From Gemmatimonadota bacterium (GTDB lineage Bacteria > Gemmatimonadota > Gemmatimonadetes > Gemmatimonadales > Gemmatimonadaceae), in assembly GCA_031127075.1 (NCBI GenBank), contig JARIFA010000006.1:1-64000 (forward strand): a stretch of 64,000 nucleotides of DNA. The letters run 5' to 3'. Shown here one piece after another: positions 2,919 to 14,157 of this stretch (position 1 is its first letter; every line of letters starts with the position of its first letter). Under the pieces are notes generated by a model. The model saw nothing but the letters and a program-made list of their open reading frames with translations. It searched no databases and was not told where the DNA came from. Position numbers and translations under genes: made by a program.

Positions 2919-3953
2919 ATGACCCGCGAAGAGATCTTCCGGCTGACCCAGTTCGCTCGCTGCGCGGGCTGAGCGTCGAAGATGGGTCCGGGTGACCTGT
3001 CCGCCGCGCTCGCGCCGCTGCCGCGCGAAGTCGATCCCCGTGTGCTCGTCGGTCGAGAGACCTTCGACGACGCGGGGGTGTTTCGCCTGTCCGACGATCT
3101 CGCGCTCGTCCAGACGGTCGATTTCTTCGCGCCCATCGTCGACGACCCGTATCGCTTCGGGCGCGTCGCCGCCGCCAACGCGCTCTCCGACGTGTATGCG
3201 ATGGGGGGCACCCCGCTCACCGCACTGAACATTGTCGCCTTCCCTGAGGGGACGCTCCCGCTCACCGTGTTGACGGAGATCCTTCGCGGGGGCCAAGACG
3301 CCGTGCACGAGGCCGGGGCGCGGCTTGTTGGCGGCCACACGGTGACCGATCCGGAGCTCAAGTACGGGCTCGCCGTCACCGGCACCGTGCACCCCGATCG
3401 GATCCTGTCGAACGCGGGCGCGCGGCCCGGCGACCGGCTCGTGCTCACCAAGCCCATCGGCACCGGGATCCTCGCGACGGCCGGTAAGCGCGGCCTCCTC
3501 GACCCCGAGCACGAGGAGCGGGTCTATCGCACAATGTGCACGCTCAACGCCGAGGCATCCGCGGCGGCCGTCGCGCTCGGGGCGCGGTGTGCCACTGACG
3601 TCACCGGGTTCGGCCTGCTCGGCCACGCGAGGCACATCGCCCGCGCGAGCGACGTCCGGCTCCTGGTCGAGATCGACGCGGTGCCCGTTCTGCCGGGCGC
3701 GCGCGAGGCATTGGCGGCCGGCTGTGCGACCGGCGGGGCGGAGCGGAACGAAGCCTGGGTCACCGATGACGTCGATTGGGCCGATGTCGGGCCCGACGAG
3801 CGCGCGCTGCTCACCGATCCGCAGACCTCCGGCGGCCTCCTCGTCGCGCTCGCACCGGGCGACGTCGCCGCGTTCCTCGCTCGGGTCCCCGACGCGGTGG
3901 TCATCGGGGAGGTCGAGGCGCCGATGCCCGGTCCTCGGCTCCGCCTGCGCTGA
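2919..3953 (+). CDS. selD: Selenide, water dikinase (selenophosphate synthetase), predicted selenoprotein with in-frame UGA = Sec
   Basis: SelD makes selenophosphate from selenide and ATP, the selenium donor for Sec-tRNA synthesis. From the ATG at 2919 the frame reads ...RLTQFARCAG-(UGA)-ASKMGPGDL...; the UGA at 2970-2972 is codon 18 and the conserved Lys is residue 21. This matches the catalytic Cys17/Lys20 arrangement of E. coli SelD, with Sec in place of Cys. Read through, the protein has 344 residues, close to the usual 347. Downstream blocks are strong: QTVDFFAPIVDDPY, AAANALSDVYAMGG, GGHTVTDPELKYG, TDVTGFGLLGHA and LTDPQTSGGLL. A GTG at 2892 is an alternative start. Starting at the ATG at 2982, after the UGA, would remove the catalytic Sec and Lys. 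A SECIS-like hairpin and a tRNA-Sec gene nearby support recoding. No Shine-Dalgarno is obvious. Confidence 0.9.
2981..3001 (+). promoter_or_regulatory. Bacterial SECIS-like hairpin downstream of the selD UGA
   Basis: Bases 2981-2988 pair with 2994-3001 (8 pairs, two of them G-U) around a five-base loop CGGGU. The loop starts 16 nt after the UGA and has G in its second position, which fits the known rules for bacterial SECIS elements: a short apical stem-loop, an early loop G, and a spacing of roughly 16-37 nt. Such a structure recruits SelB with Sec-tRNA. It overlaps codons for a conserved SelD segment, as bacterial SECIS elements do. The pairing was drawn by eye, without an energy calculation. 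Confidence 0.65.
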
Positions 3954-3977: not shown

Positions 3978-4074
3978 GGGGGCGGATGGGGTCTGGTGGT
4001 CCTCACGGTCTTCAAAACCGTAGCGGCCTGACGACGTCGGGCTGGGTGGGTTCGATTCCCACACGCTCCCGCCA
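3978..4074 (+). tRNA. selC: tRNA-Sec(UCA)
   Basis: Anticodon stem ACGGT/ACCGT encloses the loop CTTCAAA with anticodon TCA at 4012-4014, which reads UGA. A long variable arm (4026-4031 paired with 4037-4042) and a T arm GTGGG-TTCGATT-CCCAC are present. The acceptor arm pairs 3978-3984 with 4064-4070; an eighth position (G3985/A4063) is mismatched. CCA is encoded at 4072-4074. The length of 97 nt and the extra arm are characteristic of bacterial tRNA-Sec. It starts 24 bases after the selD stop; a TATCTT box at 3957-3962 could be the -10 of its own promoter. selA and selB are not in the window. Confidence 0.93.
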
Positions 4075-4120
4075 CGCGCGCGCGGAACCCGGCGGCCTGC
4101 GCCGGGTCGAATCCTCTCGT

Positions 4121-8503: not shown

Positions 8504-8577
8504 CGGGGCGTAGCGTAGCCCGGTATCGCGCCTGCTTTGGGAGCAGGAGGTCGCCGGTTCGAATCCGGCCGCCCCGA
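8504..8577 (+). tRNA. tRNA-Pro(UGG)
   Basis: Acceptor arms CGGGGCG (8504-8510) and CGCCCCG (8570-8576) pair fully. The anticodon stem CCTGC/GCAGG encloses TTTGGGA with anticodon TGG at 8538-8540. The T loop is GGTTCGAATCC. CCA is not encoded. Confidence 0.96.
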
Positions 8578-8611
8578 TCGGTCGTGCCGGAGCGCAGCTG
8601 CAGTGGGTGAA

Positions 8612-8685
8612 GCGCCAGTAGCTCAGTTGGATAGAGCAACAGCCTTCTAAGCTGTGGGTCGGGGGTTCGATTCCCTCCTGGCGCG
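8612..8685 (+). tRNA. tRNA-Arg(UCU)
   Basis: Acceptor arms GCGCCAG (8612-8618) and CTGGCGC (8678-8684) pair fully. The anticodon stem ACAGC/GCTGT encloses CTTCTAA with anticodon TCT at 8646-8648. CCA is not encoded. Confidence 0.96.
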
Positions 8686-8726
8686 CCTAGTGTTGGGTGG
8701 GAAGGTGCGGGACTGCTGGACCGTAG

Positions 8727-8799
8727 GCGCCGTTAGCTCAATTGGCAGAGCAAGTGACTCTTAATCACTAGGTTGTAGGTTCGATTCCTACACGGCGCA
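8727..8799 (+). tRNA. tRNA-Lys(CUU)
   Basis: Acceptor arms GCGCCGT (8727-8733) and ACGGCGC (8792-8798) pair fully. The anticodon stem AGTGA/TCACT encloses CTCTTAA with anticodon CTT at 8760-8762. CCA is not encoded. It is the last tRNA before the rRNA operon. Confidence 0.96.
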
Positions 8800-8924
8800 C
8801 TCGCAGGGTAACTGATCTCTGATGGCAGGGTGGGCGCGGGGGTTGCGGCAGGCGATGCAGCCCGCTATTCTCGACAGTCTTGCCCGGTTTGTATCGGCGG
8901 GGAAGCGGTTGGGCGGCTCTCGTG

Positions 8925-8973
8925 AAAATTTTTATCGAGACCCCTTGACCAGGCTTGATGAATTCGTTACTCT
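8925..8973 (+). promoter_or_regulatory. rRNA operon promoter with UP-like element
   Basis: An A/T run (8925-8935) sits just upstream of TTGACC (8945-8950), followed by a 17-base spacer and TACTCT (8968-8973). This is the layout of a strong rRNA promoter with an UP element. The predicted start lies near 8980, giving a leader of about 200 nt before the 16S. The rest of the gap (8800-8924) shows no gene or clear signal. Confidence 0.62.
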
Positions 8974-9020
8974 GATGGGCTGGCGCGGAAACGCTGCCGA
9001 GCAACTGGTTGATTGAAAAT

Positions 9021-9046
9021 CGAATCGAGAGAGATCGCAAAGTGTG
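9021..9046 (+). other. 5' arm of pre-16S rRNA processing stem
   Basis: Bases 9021-9033 (CGAATCGAGAGAG) are the exact reverse complement of 10776-10788, and TCGC at 9035-9038 pairs with GCGA at 10772-10775, leaving one bulged A. GTGTG at 9042-9046 can pair with CACAC just inside the other arm. The two arms flank the 16S gene, so this is very likely the long stem cleaved by RNase III. Confidence 0.8.
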
Positions 9047-9117
9047 CGAGGCGAACTTTTTGATCCTGTGTCCCGTTCGGGGGCCAGGGGAGAGTTTAGA
9101 CCTGAACAATTTTGTGA

Positions 9118-9164
9118 TTCCGAATAACGCTGTCATGCGATGACAGCGTGACAGCGATTCGGAA
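9118..9164 (+). repeat. Nested inverted repeat in the 16S leader
   Basis: TTCCGAAT (9118-9125) pairs with ATTCGGAA (9157-9164). Inside it CGCTGTCA (9128-9135) pairs with TGACAGCG (9141-9148), and TGACAGCG is then repeated directly at 9149-9156. The second copy could compete for the same partner, so two alternative hairpins are possible. It ends about 16 bases before the 16S start. Confidence 0.7.
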
Positions 9165-9179
9165 GAGCCTGTTGAATTC

Positions 9180-10703
<1,524 letters not shown>

Positions 10704-10765
10704 ACGGAGCAGCGAGTAGGCCACTTCGGTGGTACGAAAGCGCTACCGGTTTGTCGCTCGTCTCA

Positions 10766-10788
10766 CACACGGCGACTCTCTCGATTCG
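10766..10788 (+). other. 3' arm of pre-16S rRNA processing stem
   Basis: GCGA (10772-10775) and CTCTCTCGATTCG (10776-10788) are complementary to 9021-9038 upstream of the 16S, with CACAC at 10766-10770 extending the pairing. See the 5' arm entry. Confidence 0.8.
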
Positions 10789-10839
10789 TTCTTTGGCACC
10801 GGCTGGTGGCTTTCAGGCCGCCGGGTCGGTCCGCTGTTT

Positions 10840-10865
10840 GACAACGGAAGATGGTAGTGTTCGTG
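10840..10865 (+). other. 5' arm of pre-23S rRNA processing stem
   Basis: GACAACGG (10840-10847) pairs with CCGTTGTC (14016-14023), and the 16 bases 10850-10865 are the exact reverse complement of 13999-14014. Only a small AA/A internal loop interrupts the 24 base pairs. The arms lie about 110 bases before and 73 bases after the 23S, as expected for an RNase III processing stem. Confidence 0.85.
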
Positions 10866-10974
10866 GGATAACGAATCACACTAGTGACATGATTTCGACG
10901 AACGGCTCGCAAGAGCCACACCGATATCTGATCACTCGTTGTAGATCGCGCGTGCTCTGCTGGATTACATGTTG

Positions 10975-13926
<2,952 letters not shown>

Positions 13927-13998
13927 CTCCCCCTTTCTTCTTGAGAGGGGCTGGAAAACCAACCGCAGAGCTTCGCACGATCTAATCGATCGTTTGCA

Positions 13999-14023
13999 CA
14001 CGAACACTACCATCACCGTTGTC
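13999..14023 (+). other. 3' arm of pre-23S rRNA processing stem
   Basis: Complementary to 10840-10865: 16 consecutive pairs (13999-14014) plus 8 more (14016-14023). It lies in the 23S-5S spacer, which otherwise shows no gene. Confidence 0.85.
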
Positions 14024-14031
14024 GTCTTTTC

Positions 14032-14147
14032 GCTGGCGACTAGAGCGTAGGGGCCACACTCGTTCCCATCCCGAACACGATCGTTAAGCCCTACAGCGCC
14101 GATGGTACTCCGACCGAGAGGTCGCGGGAGAGTAGGCCGTCGCCGGC
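14032..14147 (+). rRNA. 5S ribosomal RNA
   Basis: The ends GCTGGCGAC (14032-14040) and GTCGCCGGC (14139-14147) form the terminal helix. Inside are the 5S-typical CCCATCCCGAACACGA block and the GATGGTACTC...GGGAGAGTAGG region. Length is about 116 nt; the exact ends may differ by 1-3 bases. Confidence 0.93.
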
Positions 14148-14157
14148 ACCCCCTTGG

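Follow-up and report, generated by a model that had tools for sequence, protein, structure and literature searches.

The selD gene of the window, by which we mean the whole stretch of 64,000 nucleotides analysed here, encodes with a probability of about 0.96 a selenocysteine (Sec)-containing selenophosphate synthetase of the CxxU type, whose in-frame UGA would be decoded by way of SelA, selC, SelB and a hairpin, with Sec18 and Lys21 acting in catalysis. What we observe is the sequence, its alignment to SelD, the gene complement of the genome, a site codon that is only ever TGA or Cys, and a hairpin whose preservation is linked to Sec. A Sec-containing SelD had been proposed for this locus in an initial annotation, and it is supported by the alignment, by Cys forms in relatives, by a tRNA-Sec together with selA and selB, by the SECIS-type hairpin and by a second TGA-bearing gene. 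The coordinates are given in Table 1.

Table 1. Features of the selD-selC region (positions in the window).
Feature	Position	Strand	Details
selD (selenophosphate synthetase)	2919..3953	+	344 aa read through; Sec = residue 18; stop TGA 3951-3953
In-frame TGA, Sec-predicted, on active-site Cys	2970..2972	+	CxxU motif (C15-A-G-U18); alignment, orthologous loci
Bacterial SECIS-type stem-loop (predicted)	2971..3011	+	Lower stem 2971-2976/3006-3011
Apical SECIS hairpin (predicted)	2981..3001	+	8-bp stem 2981-2988/2994-3001; loop CGGGU 2989-2993; 16 nt after UGA
selC, tRNA-Sec, anticodon TCA	3978..4074	+	ARAGORN; Rfam RF01852 at 3978-4070, 76.8 bits, gathering 47

The selD reading frame and its active site

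The TGA is in frame with both the ATG at 2919 and the SelD body through to the stop, as had been annotated, and the residues previously given on its two sides, RLTQFARCAG before and ASKMGPGDL after, are correct. The read-through product scores 400.4 bits against NCBIfam TIGR00476 (selD), above the curated cut-off of 125, and the match starts from residue 8, i.e. 5' of the TGA. By phmmer, residues 4-321 align across the TGA to chain 3u0o_A, which we take to be E. coli SelD, with U18 placed on the first Cys of AGCGCK and K21, three residues on, placed on its Lys; the same replacement of the active-site Cys, followed by the Lys, had been claimed earlier. Both of these active-site residues are presumably essential. 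The window SelD is therefore like E. coli SelD over the aligned length and in keeping the Lys, but differs at the site itself, where E. coli SelD has Cys (GAGCGCK) and the window SelD has Sec (CAGUASK), and in its extra Cys, which stands three residues before the site in the window and two after it in E. coli. The gene has the marks of a selenoprotein gene in its in-frame TGA, in coding that is conserved on both sides and in the existence of Cys homologues, and it is like the bacterial Sec-SelDs (TIGR00476) in having Sec at the active site, a SECIS-type hairpin after the UGA and Cys orthologues in relatives.

Relatives were compared over 110 SelD loci, namely the window's own, 29 picked by score and 80 picked by similarity, which do not make up a random sample. 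SelDs of the same kind as the window's, in which the site is followed by A-S-K or A-A-K, were designated family A (53 Sec, the window's included, and 25 Cys) and those with x-C-K family B (26 Sec and 3 Cys); three loci from outside the phylum (L118-L120) were excluded from both. The codon at the 2919 position is ATG, GTG or TTG in 11 of 11 members of the window's tree clade and in just 14 of the 78 family-A loci overall, so that, as far as sequence conservation can tell, ATG 2919 is likely the start of selD in this clade. The later start at 2982, which gene finders had been expected to call, opens a table-11 ORF (2982-3953, 323 aa) that is indeed in the ORF list, and a SelD begun there would presumably be inactive, given what is known of the active site. 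Standard-code gene prediction leaves out the active site of this SelD and so conceals that the genome can decode Sec.

The decoding machinery and the SECIS-type hairpin

The first base of selC lies 25 nt beyond the last base of the selD stop and 1.0 kb after the UGA, at the distance where a tRNA-Sec had been reported before. Further along in the window, at 8504-14148, tRNA genes for Pro, Arg and Lys precede a complete rRNA operon (16S-23S-5S). The window's genome, whose closest named kin are MAGs of Gemmatimonadota, is an 81.5%-complete draft (98 contigs, 2.2 Mb), and both selA (518.5 bits, cut-off 268) and selB (316 bits, cut-off 242) are found in it, together with exactly one SelD over cut-off, and with selC in the window all of SelA, SelB, SelC and SelD are present. 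The initial annotation had expected this machinery and had named the absence of selA and selB as an argument against its reading; both genes score over their cut-offs.

Over the 246 genomes of the class, SelD is found in 184 (a single match at E<=1e-30 in each), SelB in 187, both in 172 and neither in 47, a co-occurrence with a Fisher probability of 5e-26 when kinship is ignored. Among the matches listed, SelB is found in 122 of the 131 genomes with a TGA-containing selD; the nine without it at E<=1e-70 are G221, G004, G043, G073, G107, G134, G142, G173 and G226, of which G004 and G221 are each 99% complete. SelB could have been missed in some, because the class search scored at most five candidates per genome, and in the nine genomes the gene may lie on contigs that are absent, may have escaped the candidate selection, or may be replaced by a different decoding factor. 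The position of selC is also shared by relatives, being within 300 nt 3' of selD in 48 of 53 Sec and 22 of 25 Cys family-A loci, counts in which some loci end too early, and in 0 of 29 family-B loci. The predicted tRNA-Sec of L051 and L073, at about 3995-4091, overlaps the 3' end of a Cys-type selD frame.

Established knowledge of the pathway suggests how SelB binding, Sec insertion and the catalytic roles would follow one another. SelA would convert the selC product into Sec-tRNA-Sec, taking the selenium from selenophosphate, SelB would bind the hairpin just 3' of the UGA and bring Sec-tRNA-Sec to 2970-2972, and Sec18 and Lys21 would serve in the synthesis of selenophosphate from selenide and ATP. 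SelD would then be needed for its own synthesis, an enzyme depending on its own product. The enzyme appears dependent in this way because a second SelD is not seen in the genome, although at 81.5% completeness one may be encoded in the portion that the draft lacks.

The 44-nt fold that includes the lower stem has an energy of -20.5 kcal/mol (z -2.18; matched by 6 of 200 shuffled sequences) and the apical hairpin alone -9.6 kcal/mol (z -1.97), while the wider fold 2960-3020 is unexceptional (z -1.47; matched by 17 of 200). Folding also predicts the lower stem for near relatives of the window, though some Sec relatives give none. A bacterial SECIS model is given, in the passages of PMC13188914 drawn on here, as a loop of 3-9 nt with G in its first two positions, an upper stem of 4-16 bp, a distance of 16-37 nt from the UGA and an energy at or below -7.5. 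The window hairpin agrees with this published model as stated in those passages, having a 5-nt loop with G in the first two positions, an 8-bp stem and an energy below -7.5, and its 16 nt from the UGA lie at the short edge of the range.

Conservation within family A is better evidence than the fold and indicates that the hairpin is constrained in Sec orthologues and less so in Cys orthologues. The best model-type hairpin lies 16-17 nt past the UGA in 50 of 53 Sec loci, and the innermost five base pairs are intact in 52 of 53 Sec versus 1 of 25 Cys loci, a contrast that rests mostly on one pair, since 19 of the 25 Cys loci miss a single one of the five and keep 4/5. The Gly codon of the 5' arm (2985-2987) is GGT in 53/53 Sec and 3/25 Cys loci (Fisher 1.6e-16, kinship ignored) and the Asp codon of the 3' arm is GAC in 53/53 and 19/25 (Fisher 7e-4, kinship ignored). 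When eight independent Sec/Cys pairs on the starred, i.e. well supported, branches of the tree are considered, GGT at codon +5 goes with Sec in 5-6 of the 8 and never against it (p 0.03-0.06); neither GAC at +8 (mean 2.4) nor the count of pairs in the 8-bp stem (mean 4.3) ever runs against Sec, but neither reaches significance. The control codons +21 and +27 display no association with Sec in these pairs, and the Gly codon at -1, intended as a control, tracks Sec as well. Mean fold energies of -25.6 kcal/mol for Sec (81 loci) versus -23.2 kcal/mol for Cys (29 loci) are a weak contrast, and the count of stem pairs is the better one.

The hairpin and the gene complement both bear on an alternative decoding, in which a suppressor tRNA, or a UCA tRNA charged with Cys, would place Cys or Trp at the UGA instead of Sec. 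Such tRNAs do occur, but the window's genome holds a tRNA-Sec above the Rfam threshold along with SelA, SelB and SelD, SECIS-type constraint accompanies the TGA, and selD itself terminates at a TGA, which together make this reading very improbable.

In family B the hairpin is placed differently. The 26 Sec loci lack one at the family-A position, where only 1-2 of the 5 pairs can form, and have (among L013-L040) a hairpin with a GUN loop 33 nt past the UGA, with 6/6 pairs in 25 of the 26; the best-scoring loop falls 33 nt after the UGA in 18 loci and 32 nt in 8. With the SECIS at 16-17 nt in one clade and 32-33 nt in the other, it would have been rebuilt or moved at least once within the SelD family.

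Sec and Cys forms among relatives

The site codon of the 110 loci is TGA in 81, TGC in 26 and TGT in 3, with no other codon represented. All alignable loci were retained, and the site pattern, which admits only U or C, was failed by 0 of the 110; since every locus holds TGA, TGC or TGT there, TGA at the site is not a matter of chance. The 81:29 ratio is no estimate of frequency, because one of the locus-search patterns was written with Cys codons in the site position, which may bias it towards Cys forms. Among 150 listed of the 184 SelD genes of the class, 131 have one internal TGA, 19 have none and 0 have TAA or TAG; these counts are not to be summed with those of the 110 loci, because the two samples overlap in part, some contigs being of equal length in both.

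This codon pattern weighs on the view that the UGA is a true stop and that SelD is made from the internal ATG at 2982, lacking its N-terminal active-site segment. That ATG does open a 323-aa frame and recurs at the same position in 40 of 53 Sec family-A loci; however, the position is CTG or CTC in the other 13 and CTC in 26/26 Sec family-B loci, the residues 5' of the TGA are conserved among SelD loci, and the site holds a TGA or a Cys codon only, so that we find an internal start scarcely credible. Least credible of all is that the TGA arose through faulty sequencing or assembly, or through a recent nonsense mutation in a gene on its way to being lost: the genome is a fragmented draft of 98 contigs, but the TGA is present in 131 of 150 class SelD genes among the matches listed and in each of the 12 genus genomes that have SelD, TAA or TAG occurs in none of the class genes among the matches listed, the remainder of selD is open, and the base error at 2970-2972 that the initial annotation had set against its own reading is very unlikely because the same TGA recurs across genomes.

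Read as a Sec codon, the TGA appears to have been exchanged repeatedly with Cys. On a quick tree of the 110 SelDs, built with the site itself removed, 15 Sec/Cys changes are counted, 9 of them forced by well supported (starred) branches and 12 of the 15 within family A. We give about even odds to the view that SelD of Gemmatimonadota forms a natural series of repeated Sec/Cys exchanges, with decaying SECIS relics and two clades that differ in SECIS distance. The Cys-SelDs of L060, L063 and L071, beside L049, are nested among Sec-SelDs and appear to be recent Sec-to-Cys changes; L063 retains GGT as well as, judging from its letters, the hairpin sequence of the Sec type, while L060 and L071 have lost GGT. 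L012, a family-B Cys form of the E. coli type (GAGCGCK), is remote from the other loci on the tree, where its branch is very long, and was perhaps acquired from elsewhere; a tRNA-Sec is present in the same locus at 1355-1451, though not after selD.

Sec-SelD itself is an established and common bacterial selenoprotein, as far as the consulted parts of PMC1794560 and PMC13188914 describe it. In the former, no bacterial selenoproteins are more widespread than FdhA and SelD, and the Sec-SelDs number 38, with three changes from Sec to Cys; in the latter, a 2026 review, such changes are described as rare and documented mainly in FdhA and SelD. A marine survey reports 357 Sec-SelDs, with the CxxU motif in about 5.6% of the single-domain Sec-SelDs (PMC2398784, in part), whereas the Cys three residues before the site is found in 48 of 53 Sec family-A loci here, and in 25 of 25 Cys loci. 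No paper on SelD of Gemmatimonadota was found in the open literature, as judged by titles and some passages, nor was a description of the number of Sec/Cys changes or of the two SECIS positions; the string 'Gemmatimon' is absent from the main text, as distinct from the supplements, of PMC4561486, PMC5029168, PMC13188914, PMC5330540, PMC12013277, PMC1794560 and PMC2398784. The clade provides close Sec/Cys orthologue pairs, with SECIS decay alongside, for an enzyme that supplies the system decoding it. Such natural pairs could be used to test what SelD gains and loses by having Sec, and how an enzyme that requires its own product is bootstrapped.

Other candidate selenoproteins

The idea that SelD is the sole selenoprotein of this genome was dropped because the peroxiredoxin search gave a second TGA-bearing gene. 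An AhpC-TSA peroxiredoxin of the window's genome (L137, G000:C43:46100-47200) has a TGA at the Cys position, the codon starting from 46713 of C43 on the minus strand, and is on sequence grounds the predicted second selenoprotein; a peroxiredoxin with a TxxU motif is listed as a known selenoprotein in the part of PMC2398784 consulted. Across the 17 genomes of the genus, a peroxiredoxin with one internal TGA occurs in 12, the window's included, and these hold the TGA-selD, SelB and the TGA-peroxiredoxin together, with none of the three in the other 5, which have no SelD or SelB match and two of which are only 71% and 83% complete. In the 8 of 12 genomes in which the site was read, it is TGGUT in 7 and TAGUT in L150, and in 3 of the 5 genomes lacking the TGA form it reads RGCT or PGCT. 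The 22-base stretch after the TGA is unchanged in 8/8 of those read and absent from the 3 Cys forms, and could form a 7-bp hairpin with an 8-base loop, a possible SECIS candidate; in the window's genome the 27-base stretch that holds this peroxiredoxin hairpin has an energy of -11.8 kcal/mol alone and is not the minimum-energy structure within a longer fold of the peroxiredoxin site.

The search for further selenoproteins covered five families, two of them in the window's genome alone (TIGR03167 and PF00384) and three across the genus (TIGR01591, PF00578 and PF02627), and others may exist beyond them. In the window's genome there was no match to the selenouridine synthase TIGR03167, none to PF02627 (AhpD-type) at E<=1e-4, and no internal stop in the four molybdopterin matches. 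Formate dehydrogenase is matched in 15 of the 17 genus genomes, with an internal stop in 0 of 23 among the matches listed, and the motif search found Cys in L125-L127 only. In the first bases of G000:C52 (L121), the contig edge truncates the gene for a formate dehydrogenase alpha subunit, and the piece that is left begins 3' of the likely Sec/Cys site. AhpD-type (PF02627) matches with one internal TGA are present in two genus genomes (G199:C3:450008-450163 and G252:C57:9-113) and represent a possible further selenoprotein. SelD-like matches of 44-51% identity were also seen in four unannotated phage records.
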